A DNA stretch of 64,000 bases from Fibrobacter sp. UWP2 (GCF_900141705.1 NZ_FQYM01000001.1:1-64000); one strand, 5' to 3'; counted from the stretch's first letter, positions 36,360 to 43,864 are shown. Notes: generated by a model from the letters alone, not told the origin. Numbers and translations are program-made.

Positions 36360-37985
36360 TTAGTATTTTAAATATACATTCTTGTTGGGGACAAAGTCTG
36401 CGCCATACTCAACCAGCACCTTTCCAAAGAAGCGCCCCTGCAAATCGAAAGCCTTCACCAAGCGCGACGTTTTGAGGTCACGAGAATTGCGGACAGCTTT
36501 CCTGAAAATCGGCGTCGTGCTACCCGAGCTCATCCCGTATTCGAACGCACCCAAGTCAGGTGCTTCGCCCACAAACGGGAACCCGAGATCTTCGCCCTTG
36601 TCGATGGCACGGCTCCCCTTCTTGAGTTTCAAGAAGCCCACATCGGGCAAGCTACCGTCAGCGTTACGCGGGCCCAAGATTCCCGAAATCGTCGAGAGGT
36701 CCTTGCCGGTGACGGTCATGCTCGGGTCATCGAGACTCTCAAAATCGTCTTCGGTCAGGTCGAGTTTCAGGTTCCAAGTGTTGTTTTCGCCGGCGGGGCA
36801 TTCCACGTAGTGGTCGATGCCCTGGCTCGGTATATACTCCCAGCATTCCCCGACTTGAGAATTCTTGTTCGGGAAGGCGATGTTGTTCTTGAGCACGTGC
36901 GCGTTGTCGCCGGTGAGGGGCGCCACCTCGGCAATGCGGTTCCCCTGAGAATCGAAGAGCGTCGATGCCATGGCAAATTCGCGGTCCTTGTTCATGTACG
37001 ACGTGTTGTTGAGCCACTTGCTGCCCACGCCGGTATAGTTTGCATAAAAGCCCGTCGCCTTGTTTTTCCAGGCGGCGCAGAACTTGATGGTATGCCGCCC
37101 GCCGCCGAGGGTGCTCTCACCCATCTTGATGCCGTGACCGTTGCCGTTCTTCGGGTTTCCAAGTCCGTAATCGCTGTAGCCGTTCCCCATGGCGTAGCAG
37201 TTCTCCAGCACCACGGGGAATTCCTGGTTGATGAAGTCGAAGCCATCGTCGCTGTTCCACCAGGAGCGGCACCCGATGAACTTCGTGGTATCACCCTCGC
37301 CGGGTTTCTGGTAATGCGCGCCGAAGCCGTCGGCATTTTCGCCGTCGCCCTGCCAGCCCAAGGGGTCGTAGTTGTCGTGGGCATCGCAGTTCAAGAAGAT
37401 GTGTCCGCCGCCATCTGGCGCGCCGTCGTTCGCGAAGAACCCGGGGCCTGCGTTGTGGTGGCTGTCCATATTTTCCAAGAAGATGTGCTTGCTCGCGTAA
37501 AGAAACACGCCGGAATTCGAGTTGTGCTTCATGGGCGTGTTCCGCACCTCGAAACCCTTCAAATGCAAATACTTTGCCGAAATCACGATGGGAGACGTGT
37601 ACATCGCGCCTTCGGGAGTGCCGTCGCTATGGTCCGTGCCTGCGGCCACGGGGAGGTTCGCGCCGTCAAAAATCGGGCGCTCGCCCGGGTAGGCCAGGTA
37701 ATGGATGCGGTTGTCGTCGCTCTCGCCGCTTGCCGTCAAGACTATTGCCGCAGTCATTTTGTACCGTGCAAAAAAGACGGTATCGCGCAGGTCGTAGATG
37801 CCGCCGCGAACCCACACGGTGTCGCCCGCGTGCACCACGGTATTCGCCTTGTTGAGCGAGGCGAAGGGCTTGTCCTTTGTGCCCGCGCTGGCATCGTTGC
37901 CATCGGGTGCCACGTAATACACGGCACCGAAGGATTGCAGCGCCGCGAGGGCGAGCCCTAGCGCAAAAAAGAACCTCTTTGCCAT
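36360..37985 (-). CDS. Pectate lyase family 9-like, right-handed beta-helix protein
   Basis: A 541-residue secreted protein with a clear signal peptide and a parallel beta-helix domain. It begins with the typical YYVAPDGNDASAGTKDKPF start. The PL9 signatures CDAHDNYDP, GENADGFGAH and CRSWWNSDDGFDF provide the calcium-site Asp residues, and NGHGIKMGES contains a candidate catalytic Lys in the position known from Pel9A. It would cleave polygalacturonate by beta-elimination. The C-terminal 45 residues (LVKAFDLQGRFFGKVL) resemble the start of a sorting domain but are shorter than in GH10 or GH127. GGAGG precedes the ATG. Confidence 0.88.
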   Translation of the reverse strand: MAKRFFFALGLALAALQSFGAVYYVAPDGNDASAGTKDKPFASLNKANTVVHAGDTVWVRGGIYDLRDTVFFARYKMTAAIVLTASGESDDNRIHYLAYPGERPIFDGANLPVAAGTDHSDGTPEGAMYTSPIVISAKYLHLKGFEVRNTPMKHNSNSGVFLYASKHIFLENMDSHHNAGPGFFANDGAPDGGGHIFLNCDAHDNYDPLGWQGDGENADGFGAHYQKPGEGDTTKFIGCRSWWNSDDGFDFINQEFPVVLENCYAMGNGYSDYGLGNPKNGNGHGIKMGESTLGGGRHTIKFCAAWKNKATGFYANYTGVGSKWLNNTSYMNKDREFAMASTLFDSQGNRIAEVAPLTGDNAHVLKNNIAFPNKNSQVGECWEYIPSQGIDHYVECPAGENNTWNLKLDLTEDDFESLDDPSMTVTGKDLSTISGILGPRNADGSLPDVGFLKLKKGSRAIDKGEDLGFPFVGEAPDLGAFEYGMSSGSTTPIFRKAVRNSRDLKTSRLVKAFDLQGRFFGKVLVEYGADFVPNKNVYLKY

Positions 37986-38051: not shown

Positions 38052-39767
38052 CTAGCAAGAGCCGAAGTTGAATACGTGGCGGTTGTAGCTCGATGTGAGC
38101 AGGTAAACCTTGTCCACATGCGTCGACATGAACATGTTCACAAGGTAAGCGCGAAGGTCCGTCACCGCGCGCTCCAAGTCCGTCACGTCCATGATGACAC
38201 CGTTGTCCTTCACAATAAGCGTAATTCCGCTTTTCTTTACAATGACGCTGAACTCCATGTAGATTTTGCGGCCGCGGTTGCGTTCGTAAATCGTCATGCC
38301 AAGTTCCTCAACAAGGAGCATCACCTTCGTGCGCATTGCTGTATCAAAGCCCCTCGATTCCAAAAGCGTCCCCACGTCATCGCGGAAAGCCAACAGACTC
38401 TCTGGGAAAAGCAGCACGTTTCGCATATGCCAATCACCCGAGGCCTTGAACTCGTCCAGCAAAAGCGGGAACCCCTTGCGTCCGTAAAGCAGCAGGTGCA
38501 AAACAATTGACAAAGCTAACGCCAAAAACGGCGCCACGGCAAAGCCCATCCAAAATCCGTCCGGAATAAGCGTTTGCAGCCCGAACGCACAGACGACAGG
38601 ACTCAAAAAGACGATCATAACAATCATCGATATCGAAAGCACCGGTTGCTCATGCTCATAGTAGGCGGCATATACCTTTACGATCGCCATCGGCAGCATG
38701 CCCACGGCGGCGGCACGCACAGCAAGCACCGCTGCGCCCACCAGTTCACCCGAATGGATGTGAAACAGGTGCACCACCCACGGGGCAAACAAAAAGAGGG
38801 CGACCGATACGAGAACGCCTTCCTTAAAAAGTGTGTAATTCACAAACCGCATCGCCTGCGCAACGCCGTTCCCGTTCTTCTCGCCGCGGTAAATATTGAT
38901 GAGCGGTTCCGCCGCAAGCCATACCCCGTTAAACAGCACGCCCATTTCGATGAGTTCGTACATCATCGAGAGTACGGGCAACGGCCCCGTACCGTGCACT
39001 GTGATAAAGTAATGGTTCGTTACAGCAGTAAACAACGTAAAAAAGAGGAACTCGAGCGATTCCGCCATGCTGAACCGCACTACCGAAGCGCTATCGCGGG
39101 CGGTCACGTGCCATATAAACTTGAGGGTATTCGTCTTCTTGAAAAAATGCACGGCAAGCACAAGCGTGCTCAGGACATTCGCAAGGAGCGTACCGAGCGC
39201 AATGCCCTCCATGCCCATTTGACGGCCCAGCAAAAACGAGAGCGCAGCGTTTGAGCCGAGCAGCACCGTATAAGACGCATTACAGATTTTCACGTCGCCG
39301 TCGGCATACACCATCTGCTGCAAAAAGCAATTCACCGGGATGGCAAAGGCCACCCACACAAAATAACGGTAGAACTCGTTGACATAGTTGCCTAAATCTG
39401 GGTCCACCCCCACAAAGTTCAATATGGCAACGCGGGCCATGAAGAACAAGGCAAGGAGGGCAAGGCCAATCACCGTCGAAAGGATGAGCCCCTGGCCAAA
39501 GAACCCATTGGCGCGAACCCGGCACAAGCGCCCAATTTCAATCGAATAGCACACGCGGCTTCCAACCATCACGATCGCGCTCACAAAGAACACGAACGAA
39601 AACATGGGTGTAAACATGGAAACGGCGGCAAGCGCCTTCTCGCCCAACACCTGTGCCGAGACCACTTTGTCTACGAGCACGTTCGCGATTTCTACACACG
39701 CAGAAACCGACGCCGTAAAGAGCATCGACTTGAAGCGCCTGCCGCAAAACGTGTCGTTTATTTTCAT
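38052..39767 (-). CDS. MATE-family transporter fused to a divergent GHKL ATPase domain
   Basis: A 571-residue protein. Residues about 10-445 form twelve membrane helices of the MATE/polysaccharide-flippase type. The last 115 residues are cytosolic and resemble the GHKL ATPase fold of RsbW/SpoIIAB kinases. They contain VMLLVEELGMTIYERN in the N-box position, with Thr or Met where Asn is expected, and VKDNGV as the DXG nucleotide motif; no GLGL lid motif is visible. ATP binding may therefore be altered. It is third in an operon with a PP2C phosphatase and a STAS protein, so the ATPase-like domain may bind the STAS partner and gate the transporter. That function is inference. Confidence 0.8.
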   Translation of the reverse strand: MKINDTFCGRRFKSMLFTASVSACVEIANVLVDKVVSAQVLGEKALAAVSMFTPMFSFVFFVSAIVMVGSRVCYSIEIGRLCRVRANGFFGQGLILSTVIGLALLALFFMARVAILNFVGVDPDLGNYVNEFYRYFVWVAFAIPVNCFLQQMVYADGDVKICNASYTVLLGSNAALSFLLGRQMGMEGIALGTLLANVLSTLVLAVHFFKKTNTLKFIWHVTARDSASVVRFSMAESLEFLFFTLFTAVTNHYFITVHGTGPLPVLSMMYELIEMGVLFNGVWLAAEPLINIYRGEKNGNGVAQAMRFVNYTLFKEGVLVSVALFLFAPWVVHLFHIHSGELVGAAVLAVRAAAVGMLPMAIVKVYAAYYEHEQPVLSISMIVMIVFLSPVVCAFGLQTLIPDGFWMGFAVAPFLALALSIVLHLLLYGRKGFPLLLDEFKASGDWHMRNVLLFPESLLAFRDDVGTLLESRGFDTAMRTKVMLLVEELGMTIYERNRGRKIYMEFSVIVKKSGITLIVKDNGVIMDVTDLERAVTDLRAYLVNMFMSTHVDKVYLLTSSYNRHVFNFGSC

Positions 39768-39773
39768 TTGGGA

Positions 39774-40070
39774 CTATGCGAGCGTCAAGATATCGCTGAA
39801 GCCTGTGACGTCAAAGATCTCCTTCACTTCGGGTCCGGCGTTCTTGATGACCATGGAACCCTGCTTGTTCATCACCTTCTGTGCCGAAAGCAAAATGCGG
39901 AGGCCCGCCGACGAAATGTAGGCGAGTTTCGCGAAATCGAACACAAGGTTCTTGACGCCATCGAGCTTTCCCTGGATCTCGTTGCCGAGTTCGGGCGCGG
40001 TAAGCGTATCAAGGCGACCTTCGAGGCTCACTGTCAGTGTATCGTTTTCTTGTATCTTTTCAATTTTCAT
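39774..40070 (-). CDS. STAS-domain anti-sigma-factor antagonist
   Basis: A 98-residue single STAS domain of the SpoIIAA/RsbV type. It has the expected strands and the phosphoacceptor region YISSAGLRILLSAQK; one of the two Ser near residue 54-55 is the probable phosphorylation site. Dephosphorylated STAS proteins bind GHKL kinases. The start was placed at 40070 because GAGG lies six bases upstream and the longer frame has no support. It sits between the phosphatase and the MATE-ATPase gene, 19 and 6 bases away. Confidence 0.9.
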   Translation of the reverse strand: MKIEKIQENDTLTVSLEGRLDTLTAPELGNEIQGKLDGVKNLVFDFAKLAYISSAGLRILLSAQKVMNKQGSMVIKNAGPEVKEIFDVTGFSDILTLA

Positions 40071-40089
40071 ATTGACCTCTTTTTTATTA

Positions 40090-42399
40090 TCAAACTTTTT
40101 TTGTAATGATCTTTGTGAGCGTGAGCTGGTTCTTTTCGCCATTGCGCTCATACTCAAGCGAATCCATCATCTTTTTCACAATAAAGATGCCGAGCCCGCC
40201 CACGCCGCGCTCTTCCGCAGAAAGCGTCACATCCGGATCGTCCTTTTCGAGCGGGTTATAGGGCTTGCCGTCGTCCACAAACGTCAATTTTATTGCCGAC
40301 GGGTTGTCCATAATGTAAATCGTCAGCGTCACCTCCGTGGCACCGGAGTAACTTACAATGTTGCTGAACACCTCGTCAATTGCCACGTCCATCTGCGTTA
40401 TGGTCTTCATGGGCGTATCCGTATTCCCAAGAACGCCCTCCACGAACGCGGTGAGCCTTTCCAGGTTTTCGACCTTCGGGAACACCTTCACCGAGATTGA
40501 CGTACCGCCGCAAATAAACTTCACCGCGAGCATCGTGATGTCGTCGAACTGCGGGGCCGAGCCAACAAAGGCATCCACGTCCTTCTTTACGCGAGCGCAG
40601 ACTTCTTCGGGATCGCACTCGTTGCAAGCAGCGAGTGACGAAAGCAAGCGGTCGTCACCAAAGAGTTCGTTCTGGGCGTTCGTCGCTTCCGTCACGCCGT
40701 CGGTATAAAGCAAAAGCGTATCGCCCGGATCCAGTTGCGCCGTATGTTCCGTGTAATGGACATCTCCCATCGCCGCCATGACGATTCCCGGCTTTACCTT
40801 TAAGAATTCGGTCGTCCCGTCCTTTCGCAAGATGGCGGGCGGATTATGCCCGGCCGAGGCGAAATGCAGCTGCCCCGTGCGCAAATCCAGTATGCCCGCC
40901 CATACGGTGACGAACATTTCCAGCTTGTTCTTCAAGAACATCTTCTGGTTTGCGGAGTCGAACGCGTCCGATATAGAATCCAGAGTCGCGATCATCGTCT
41001 TCACGACAATAAGCGCCGCCATCATGAACAGCGCCGCCGGCACGCCCTTGCCCGAAACGTCTGCGATAAGCACGCAAAGGCGGTTGTCGTCCAGCTTAAA
41101 GAAGTCGTAGAAGTCGCCGCCGATTTCCTTCGCCGGCAACAGGAAGGGAGCCAGTTTGTGGCGGCAATCGTCCATCTTCTCGTCCATTTCGCTCTTGGGG
41201 AGCATGCCCATCTGGATGCCCCGGGCAAACCCAAGCTCGCTCTCGATGCGTTCAAGACCCTTTTGCGTCTGGATGTATTCCTGCAACGAGGAGCGCATCT
41301 TCCCGAACGCCGCCGCAAAATGCGAAATTTCGTCATTGCCTTCGAGGTTCGGGATTTCTGCGTCAAAATCCCCCTGGCCTAACTTATCGGCAACATTGGA
41401 GAGCGTCACGAGCGGTCGCGTCACACGGAGCGAAACGAGAAGGAGAATAACGATGATTAAAATGTATCCGCAAGCACTGAGTATAATGAATGTGCGCCCA
41501 AGGGAACGCTGTTCCTCGAAGAATTTTTGCGAAGGCCACACGACCATGTAGGTCCAGCCATTAACGGTCATGCGGCGGAAATAGACGACGGCATCCGTTT
41601 CGTCTAATACGGATGCGACAAAGAGGCCCTGGTCACGACTGCGGAAGTTCTTTTCCAGTTCAAAGAACTGAGGTCTGTAATTTTTACCGGCCTCCCTGTG
41701 TCCTTCGGCCCCAATGGCAAAATTGCCAGAGGAAAGGATAAAGGCGAACCCGGAATTCGCGATGGGAATGCTTTCCAACGCCTCGTTCAAGAACTTGAGC
41801 GAAATGTCGACGCAGAGGACGCCCGCGAATTTTTTCTCGCCAGCCTTGTCGGTCTTGAAAATAGGAATTGTGTAGACCGCGATGGGTCCCGGCACAAACT
41901 GCCCAATGAACGGCTCCTGCCACAACGCCTTTTGCTTATTTTTGGTGCTTGTGTACCAAAGTTTTTCTTGGTAGCTGTGGCCGTCCTTGACCACTATGGA
42001 ATCCCCTTCGCGCATCGCGAGCCGCATATATTCATTGGCACGCGCATTGGGAGCCATTCCCTGTTCATAGGCGACAACAATCGCTTCCACCTGCGGGAGC
42101 CTGAACATGGCCTCCTCAAGGGCCTTGCGGAGGAACATTCCCTGTTCCTCGGGCGTCATCGTCTCGGTTTCAATGGTACTGACGGCGGCCTCGCCTATGG
42201 CTATCGCATCGTTAAAAATGCGTTCAAAGAGCACGATGTTCGCTTGGCTCACCTCTTCGCTGCGCTTGGTAAGCATTTCACCAAGTTTCTCATTTGACAG
42301 ATAACGCATCACGCCAAGGACACCCCCGAACACGATGGTAATGCCAACGAGTATCATCAGGGACTGTTTAAACGCCAGACCATGGATATTGAATTTCAT
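40090..42399 (-). CDS. Membrane sensor PP2C (SpoIIE/RsbU) phosphatase with its own GHKL ATPase domain
   Basis: A 769-residue sensor. A membrane helix near 10-32, an extracytoplasmic dCache-like domain (about 35-285), a second helix (about 300-325) and a HAMP domain precede a SpoIIE phosphatase domain at about 400-610. Its metal-binding motifs are all present: GGDFYDF, LIADVSGKG, LLLYTDGVTEA and FDDITML. A GHKL ATPase domain ends the protein with an intact N-box (AIDEVFSNI), DDGKPYNP and the lid GVGGLGIF. It thus combines the phosphatase and kinase of a partner-switching module. The STAS protein downstream is its probable substrate. The ATG at 42399 has AGGGG upstream. Confidence 0.92.
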   Translation of the reverse strand: MKFNIHGLAFKQSLMILVGITIVFGGVLGVMRYLSNEKLGEMLTKRSEEVSQANIVLFERIFNDAIAIGEAAVSTIETETMTPEEQGMFLRKALEEAMFRLPQVEAIVVAYEQGMAPNARANEYMRLAMREGDSIVVKDGHSYQEKLWYTSTKNKQKALWQEPFIGQFVPGPIAVYTIPIFKTDKAGEKKFAGVLCVDISLKFLNEALESIPIANSGFAFILSSGNFAIGAEGHREAGKNYRPQFFELEKNFRSRDQGLFVASVLDETDAVVYFRRMTVNGWTYMVVWPSQKFFEEQRSLGRTFIILSACGYILIIVILLLVSLRVTRPLVTLSNVADKLGQGDFDAEIPNLEGNDEISHFAAAFGKMRSSLQEYIQTQKGLERIESELGFARGIQMGMLPKSEMDEKMDDCRHKLAPFLLPAKEIGGDFYDFFKLDDNRLCVLIADVSGKGVPAALFMMAALIVVKTMIATLDSISDAFDSANQKMFLKNKLEMFVTVWAGILDLRTGQLHFASAGHNPPAILRKDGTTEFLKVKPGIVMAAMGDVHYTEHTAQLDPGDTLLLYTDGVTEATNAQNELFGDDRLLSSLAACNECDPEEVCARVKKDVDAFVGSAPQFDDITMLAVKFICGGTSISVKVFPKVENLERLTAFVEGVLGNTDTPMKTITQMDVAIDEVFSNIVSYSGATEVTLTIYIMDNPSAIKLTFVDDGKPYNPLEKDDPDVTLSAEERGVGGLGIFIVKKMMDSLEYERNGEKNQLTLTKIITKKV

Positions 42400-42589: not shown

Positions 42590-43864
42590 ATGGACAAGTC
42601 GTTCTTTCGCCCTTTTGCCCTTCTCTTGTTGGCTTCAGCCCTTGCTGCGCCGGCAGTGTTCGGCTATGCCGGCGAGGGCTGTAAGGACGGGACGCCCATC
42701 GGGACGGTATCCCTGGAGGGAATGACCCGAACAAAACCCCATGTGGTCCTTCGCGAACTTTCCATGAAGTCGGGAGTCGCCTATTCGGACTCCTTGTTTA
42801 CCGCCGACGCCCGGCGGCTTGAAAGCCTGGACCTGTTTTCTGATATCAAGCTGAGCTGCGTCCAAGAGGGCGACCAACAGAACATCGTCCTGCAACTGAC
42901 CGAAATTTTTCCGTTCATTCCCGCCCCTGCGGGCAAAAAGACCGATCAGGACGGCTGGATGCTGGGAGGCGCCCTCGCCTACCTGAACCTCTTTGGCGAA
43001 GACATCCGCAGCGAAATCCAATACAGGACTTCCCTGGACCCCCTGTTCGACAACAACGAATATGCTATTTACACATCGTCTCCCTGGCTCTTTGGACTAC
43101 CCGTAGGGTGGAACATCGAGCTCCTCCGCACCGACAGCTATGACGAACTGCGAAATTTTCACAACGCCTCCTGGCTTGCCGACTTAGATTTGGAATGGAA
43201 CTTCACACAGCGATTCGCCCTTCTTGTTTCTGGGGCATACCGCTACATGGAGAAATTCGGCCATGTTCCCGAGGGAGGGCTCGGGATTTCCTTTGACACC
43301 AGGGATTCCCCGCTGGATTCCCGACGCGGCACCTATGACGAGATAATGCTGACCCGAGTCGGGGCGCACGACTTGCCGGAAAACTTCTTTGAAATCCTGA
43401 CGGACTTCCGGGGGTACTACACAGCGGGCAGGTTTATTTCTGGATTGTCGGCTCTTTTCCGTTACCGGTTCGGCCATGCGGAATTCTTTGACCGTTTTCA
43501 CCATGGAGGCGCCAACACCTTCCGCGGGGCAGACGCGGATACTTCCAGACACGGCAAGCACGAAAGCCTCTTGAACTTCGAAGAGCGTTTTGTCCTGCTG
43601 GAACGCAGGCCTGCAAGTGTCGTCGGAATCAACTTTTTCTATGGAGTCCAGCTGGTGGCGGGTTTGGACGGATCTTTTTTGTGGGATGATTCGGACCTGG
43701 ACTGGAGCGAGTATTCTGGAGCCGTCTATGGAGGCATCCACTTGCTGATACCGGCACTGGACCGCATCCGCATAGAAGTCGGCTACGCACCGGATACTGG
43801 CGAGCCCAAAATTTTTGTCGGGCTCTTCGAAAAGAACGTCTCCCAGAGATGGCGCTCCAGGTAA
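42590..43864 (+). CDS. Omp85-superfamily outer membrane protein with one POTRA-like domain
   Basis: A 424-residue outer membrane protein. After the signal peptide, residues about 35-110 form a POTRA-like domain (GTVSLEGMTRTKPHVVLREL). Residues about 120-424 are predicted beta-barrel, with alternating amphipathic strands. A GANTFRGAD motif resembles the VRGF/Y loop of Omp85 proteins, and GISFDTRDSPLDSRRG is a characteristic strand. BamA has five POTRA domains and TamA three; this one is shorter and resembles surface-antigen (D15)-like proteins. Role could be protein or lipid export, or patatin-like autotransport without the patatin. The gene lies divergently to the PP2C operon. Confidence 0.8.
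   Translation: MDKSFFRPFALLLLASALAAPAVFGYAGEGCKDGTPIGTVSLEGMTRTKPHVVLRELSMKSGVAYSDSLFTADARRLESLDLFSDIKLSCVQEGDQQNIVLQLTEIFPFIPAPAGKKTDQDGWMLGGALAYLNLFGEDIRSEIQYRTSLDPLFDNNEYAIYTSSPWLFGLPVGWNIELLRTDSYDELRNFHNASWLADLDLEWNFTQRFALLVSGAYRYMEKFGHVPEGGLGISFDTRDSPLDSRRGTYDEIMLTRVGAHDLPENFFEILTDFRGYYTAGRFISGLSALFRYRFGHAEFFDRFHHGGANTFRGADADTSRHGKHESLLNFEERFVLLERRPASVVGINFFYGVQLVAGLDGSFLWDDSDLDWSEYSGAVYGGIHLLIPALDRIRIEVGYAPDTGEPKIFVGLFEKNVSQRWRSR

Follow-up and report, generated by a model that had tools for sequence, protein, structure and literature searches.

Partner switching is generally taught as a means of controlling transcription. The RsbU-RsbV-RsbW and SpoIIE-SpoIIAA-SpoIIAB modules consist of a PP2C phosphatase, a STAS protein with a conserved phospho-serine and an RsbW-like GHKL kinase domain. 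Unphosphorylated RsbV or SpoIIAA binds to the RsbW or SpoIIAB fold and is set free once that kinase has phosphorylated it. Outputs other than sigma factors are already known in principle. Several STAS proteins act elsewhere than on transcription, with targets that are not known; the stated example is SypA from Vibrio fischeri, which acts below the level of transcription and whose phospho-state is set by the kinase-phosphatase fusion SypE (PMC10120452). The stand-alone STAS protein MlaB binds the transporter ATPase MlaF (PMC7367683). Here we report on a three-gene operon in a stretch of 64,000 nucleotides from Fibrobacter sp. UWP2 (NZ_FQYM01000001.1:1-64000, hereafter the window; the source genome comprises 3.23 Mb in 72 contigs). 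It codes for a PP2C phosphatase with a sensor, a STAS protein and a MATE transporter with a C-terminal tail (Table 1). It shares phosphatase, STAS protein and kinase domain with the Rsb and SpoII modules, yet no sigma factor is present in the operon, kinase and phosphatase reside on one polypeptide, and a second, degenerate RsbW fold is predicted as a fusion to a transporter. A STAS protein together with a kinase-phosphatase fusion recalls SypA-SypE; however, the operon described here includes the gene of a candidate target. In MlaFEDB, MlaB docks on an ABC ATPase, whereas the dock proposed here is the RsbW-fold tail of a secondary transporter, accompanied by phosphatase and kinase. We consider it rather probable that the operon is a partner-switching module in which the transporter is the direct effector, i.e. 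that the STAS protein acts on the MATE transporter via a pseudo-kinase tail.

The three genes are on the minus strand in the order PP2C > STAS > MATE-tail, with about 20 and 6 bp between them. This order, a PP2C sensor, a STAS protein and a MATE transporter with a GHKL-like domain, had been claimed in a first-pass annotation made from the sequence, and it is confirmed; Pfam identified SpoIIE, STAS and MatE in the respective products. One correction is needed. The PP2C gene runs from an ATG at 42399 to its stop codon at 40090 and codes for 769 aa, or for 777 aa if a GTG further upstream is used. Its product had been taken for a sensor-phosphatase only. The Pfam architecture of this protein is dCache-like (E 1e-10), HAMP (E 3e-9), SpoIIE phosphatase (E 3.4e-52) and HATPase_c_2 (E 3.9e-19), the last a full domain which had been missed; the translation shows the motifs DVSGKG, YTDGVTEA and DDITML. 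Because the PP2C protein carries an intact RsbW-like kinase domain, the tail of the MATE protein is not needed as the kinase of the module. The earlier reading of a partner-switching module stood with respect to a GHKL fold on the transporter, and is corrected with respect to the kinase, which is a separate domain on the PP2C protein. In the STAS protein we take Ser54 to be the phosphorylation site, by alignment with Ser56 of RsbV. The surrounding motif SS[AS]G[LIM]R was kept in 35/35 linked STAS proteins.

What is the tail of the MATE protein? Pfam returned nothing at E<1 for the C-terminus by itself. When a profile built on 26 Fibrobacter relatives was compared by hhalign with one built on 14 RsbW-like kinases, the two aligned over their whole length (96.8%, E 2.7e-10, 114 columns); as negative controls, the same tail profile scored below 1% probability against STAS or PP2C profiles. 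Sequence matches of the tail in the PDB were RsbW and SpoIIAB. AlphaFold modeled the whole MATE protein with a predicted local distance difference test score of 84.5; the tail by itself scored 83.9 and runs in the order strand-helix-helix-strand-strand-lid-helix-strand-strand. The top PDB matches of the tail in Foldseek were the STAS-binding anti-sigma kinases SpoIIAB, RsbW and UsfX. VIA-align returned Z 14.2 to RsbW (6m37) and 14.0 to SpoIIAB (1th8), both structures which include their STAS partners; histidine kinases reached about 7-8. Because of the hhalign E-value, the PDB matches and Z-scores of 14 compared with about 7-8, the tail is by profile and model assigned to the RsbW/SpoIIAB fold specifically and not to a generic GHKL fold. 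The GHKL-like character claimed before was thus borne out by profile comparison and by structure prediction of the tail alone. The tail is of full length in 26/26 Fibrobacter relatives, shares 45-55% identity among near relatives and has an invariant NR pair close to its end.

The fold is retained in these models; the catalytic boxes are not. We carried out a motif census of 14 kinases (PP2C-fused or free), 66 other fusions and 26 window-type homologues from Fibrobacter. The true kinases have the N-box Asn in 14/14 and the G2 box GxG in 14/14 instances. Fusions outside the window type have the N-box Asn in 64 of 66 cases and keep the G1 box; their G2 box is altered, with the first Gly lost. 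In the window type the N-box Asn is found in 0/26 and G2 is lost, which leaves the acidic residue of the N-box and the D-x-G of G1 as the sole remnants. Given the chemistry of the kinase family, loss of the N-box Asn and of G2 marks the window-type tail as a predicted pseudo-kinase, and a working kinase is very unlikely. The tail as kinase of the module was considered and rejected for the window type, since these residues are lost and a separate complete kinase is present in the operon. STAS reader is a more fitting name for the tail than kinase.

The preceding residues of the protein are related to DinF and PfMATE. Foldseek matched the transport domain to PfMATE (4mlb; template modelling score 0.82, E about 1e-12) and also to DinF-BH (4lz6), and the column of Asp33 in transmembrane segment 1 is at least 90% conserved. 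MatE domain and modelled fold fit the assignment as a MATE protein; cation-coupled export of a substrate is predicted. Pfam domain, fold and the Asp are shared with DinF/PfMATE-type proteins, from which the protein differs by the extra cytoplasmic RsbW-fold domain of about 125 residues.

Table 1. Features of the PP2C-STAS-MATE operon; positions are counted from the first nucleotide of the window.
Feature	Position	Strand	Basis
PP2C-type (SpoIIE/RsbU-like) phosphatase with membrane sensor and C-terminal RsbW-like kinase domain	40090..42399	-	Pfam; 769 aa
Extracellular dCache-like sensor domain	41551..41976	-	Pfam dCache_1, 41.9 bits, just under the 45-bit cut-off
PP2C/SpoIIE catalytic domain, the sole one in the genome	40516..41091	-	PF07228, 177.6 bits (25-bit cut-off)
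RsbW-like kinase domain; N-box, G1 and G2 (GLG) intact	40111..40476	-	PF13581; only HATPase_c_2 match in the genome
STAS protein (RsbV/SpoIIAA-like), 98 aa	39774..40070	-	Pfam PF01740, E 1.5e-15; NCBIfam ant_ant_sig (TIGR00377), 1e-18; both over cut-off
Predicted phospho-acceptor Ser54 in YISSAGLR	39909..39911	-	Conserved motif and alignment
MATE transporter fused to predicted pseudo-RsbW domain, 571 aa	38052..39767	-	Pfam, profile comparison, model
MATE transport domain, residues 1-432, DinF/PfMATE-like	38472..39767	-	Pfam MatE (PF01554), E 4e-15; Foldseek
Predicted pseudo-RsbW (GHKL-fold) domain, residues 445-569, about 125 residues	38061..38435	-	hhalign and model fold
Degenerate N-box, EELGMT where kinases have E...N	38292..38309	-	Motif census

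The genome has one SpoIIE PP2C, one HATPase_c_2 above cut-off and one free RsbV-like STAS protein, that of the window. Three STAS matches were obtained in total; apart from that of the window, they lie in frames of 648 aa (SulP-like judging from the size) and of 223 aa. A further SpoIIE phosphatase, RsbW-like domain or RsbV-like STAS was not found in the genome. Thus, the partner-switching parts form a closed system in this organism.

MATE-HATPase fusions are widespread. We surveyed 168 Fibrobacterota genomes with a fusion profile, in which plain MATEs end at about position 430-440 and fusions match over the full length. Of the 80 genomes within the genus, 39 contained fusions, as did a few other Fibrobacterota genomes. 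The RsbW-like kinase occurred in 39/39 genomes with a fusion versus 22/41 of the others, and PP2C in 38/39 versus 25/41 (Fisher 2.7e-7 and 5.7e-5, respectively; the statistic ignores kinship); the single fusion genome lacking PP2C is 71% complete (G042). Conversely, none of the 19 kinase-less genomes of the genus has a fusion. At 33 Fibrobacterota fusion loci the neighbors were STAS and/or PP2C and/or kinase genes in many orders: PP2C-HAT>STAS>MATE, HAT>STAS>MATE, MATE>STAS>PP2C, STAS>MATE>PP2C and MATE>PP2C. Where fusions are unlinked, PP2C-HATPase and STAS homologues are encoded elsewhere in the genome, mostly as an adjacent pair. In a tree of the transport domains the Fibrobacter window type forms a single clade (support 100), within which linked and unlinked proteins are intermingled. 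A second, less degenerate Fibrobacter lineage of MATE-HATPase proteins, whose tail retains the N-box Asn, was seen at two loci (L061 and L063, genomes G039 and G009); its genes are divergent from a STAS > PP2C > kinase operon.

A second survey used one genome per species and a query built from a three-row alignment. It yielded 65 loci, 63 of them usable and nearly all MATE-HATPase fusions, from Chitinispirillales, Treponema, Synergistaceae, Lachnospiraceae, Ruminococcus, Selenomonadaceae, Bacilli, Desulforhopalus and others. STAS or PP2C genes were present in the flanks of 18/63 loci. Orders outside the phylum were PP2C>STAS>MATE, STAS>PP2C>MATE, MATE>STAS>PP2C-HAT, STAS>MATE>PP2C and MATE>STAS alone. 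Lachnospiraceae AD3010 (L119) has exactly the order of the window, PP2C > STAS > MATE-HATPase, each domain confirmed by Pfam. The PP2C protein of AD3010 (L119:3592-5646) has a weak N-terminal match to Acyl_transf_3, a membrane acyltransferase, below cut-off, which would be an unusual sensor for a phosphatase. A STAS or PP2C gene was within 150 bp on the same strand at 21/33 Fibrobacterota loci and at 12/63 others; the background in the outer flanks was 4 STAS/PP2C genes in 314 kb. Because the same gene set recurs in many orders against such a background, the linkage is more than chance. Thus, the survey for which the first-pass annotation had called showed that MATE-HATPase fusions beside STAS and/or PP2C genes recur across phyla, in many gut and rumen bacteria. 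A plasmid search returned plain MATEs only.

How might such a module operate? The RsbW-like domain on the PP2C protein would keep the STAS protein phosphorylated on Ser54. The dCache-HAMP sensor of the same protein would control the PP2C domain, so that upon an extracellular signal PP2C would strip the phosphate off STAS. Dephosphorylated STAS would then behave as RsbV does towards RsbW: it would dock on the tail of the MATE protein, which is RsbW-shaped and catalytically dead, and the docked STAS would change transporter activity. We infer binding of STAS to the tail, its dependence on phosphorylation and an effect on transport from the domain content, the modeled fold of the tail, the lost catalytic boxes, the conserved phospho-Ser, linkage and co-occurrence. 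Several observations weigh against this proposal. Seven of the closest relatives of the window MATE protein are unlinked, and in the second survey neither STAS nor PP2C genes were present in the flanks of 45/63 loci (up to 6 kb, many contigs ending early). The counting of co-occurrence is blind to the kinship of the genomes. Because the kinase occurs without the fusion in 22 Fibrobacter genomes and a STAS protein about 71% identical to that of the window occurs without a MATE fusion in genome G044, the STAS core does not serve MATE exclusively and has other jobs, too. Further, kinase-STAS or STAS genes which are close kin of those of the window adjoin genes for GGDEF membrane proteins (domain judged by eye) at L163 and L169 in genomes G032 and G045; this suggests other outputs of the same STAS family.

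The main rival turns the direction of signaling around. The fused MATE would be the input, a transceptor that, depending on its transport state, uses its RsbW-like tail to phosphorylate or titrate STAS, and STAS would act elsewhere. Fusions outside the window type may bind ATP as they keep the N-box Asn and the G1 box, and there is no other kinase near the MATE>STAS loci L073, L104 and L124, the STAS>PP2C>MATE loci L103 and L106 and the PP2C>STAS>MATE locus L119. However, even the fusions outside the window type lack the first Gly of the G2 box, and the window-type tails have neither N-box Asn nor G2 while an intact kinase is present. Moreover, the operon offers no alternative effector, and the genome has no second HATPase_c_2 or RsbV-like STAS. 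We regard this explanation as unlikely overall; it is weakest for the window type and may apply to fusions with an intact N-box. Alternatively, the tail could be a relic or purely structural, serving dimerization or stability without signaling, and the linkage a frozen accident. Loss of the catalytic residues and the unlinked near relatives would agree with this, but a tail that is of full length in all 26 Fibrobacter relatives, conserved among near relatives and marked by the invariant NR pair would not; in addition, linkage was rebuilt in differing orders and co-occurrence with the kinase is complete. This makes a relic improbable.

Does the operon serve a sigma factor after all? The RsbW-like domain of the PP2C protein could be an anti-sigma factor for an unlinked sigma factor, with MATE as a co-transcribed passenger or target. 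Occurrence of STAS and kinase without MATE fusions fits, as do sigma factors elsewhere in the genome. There are six sigma70_r4 matches; five were typed (C11:90142 was left out), three as RpoD/RpoS-type and two as ECF-type. Yet none of the five typed sigma factors reached the cut-off of the SigB/F/G family (TIGR02980; best 96 versus 234 bits among the matches listed). The absence of an adjacent sigma factor gene, which had been pointed out for this operon, extends to the flanks of every STAS/PP2C-linked locus surveyed. A passenger needs no tail with an RsbW fold, nor would it recur in at least six gene orders across phyla. We consider a classical sigma switch improbable. Returning to the STAS protein as a regulator of the MATE transporter, we narrowly favor a general form of it: a class of partner switches in which transport is the direct target of a STAS phospho-switch via MATE-fused RsbW folds, spanning Fibrobacterota, Clostridia, Bacilli, Negativicutes, Synergistota, Spirochaetota and Desulfobacterota, with the domain decayed to a pure STAS reader in Fibrobacter. 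A description of a MATE-HATPase fusion or of a STAS-gated MATE was not found in the open-access literature (most subscription journals were not covered). If true, MATE transporters of rumen and gut bacteria would possess an on/off switch that works post-translationally. As the candidate STAS target is genetically attached and has a matching fold, the idea of pseudo-kinase docks which gate effectors becomes directly testable.

Scans of the window with Rfam and of defence systems with PADLOC gave no match. Downstream of the MATE gene by 66 bp and on the same strand is a gene for a secreted, pectate-lyase-like beta-helix protein (36360-37985, minus strand; identity judged by eye from the translation). 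Because the gap between the two genes holds a promoter-like match, the beta-helix gene is probably a separate transcription unit. On the other side, a gene for an Omp85/BamA-like outer-membrane protein (42590-43864, plus strand; judged by eye) is divergent from the operon.

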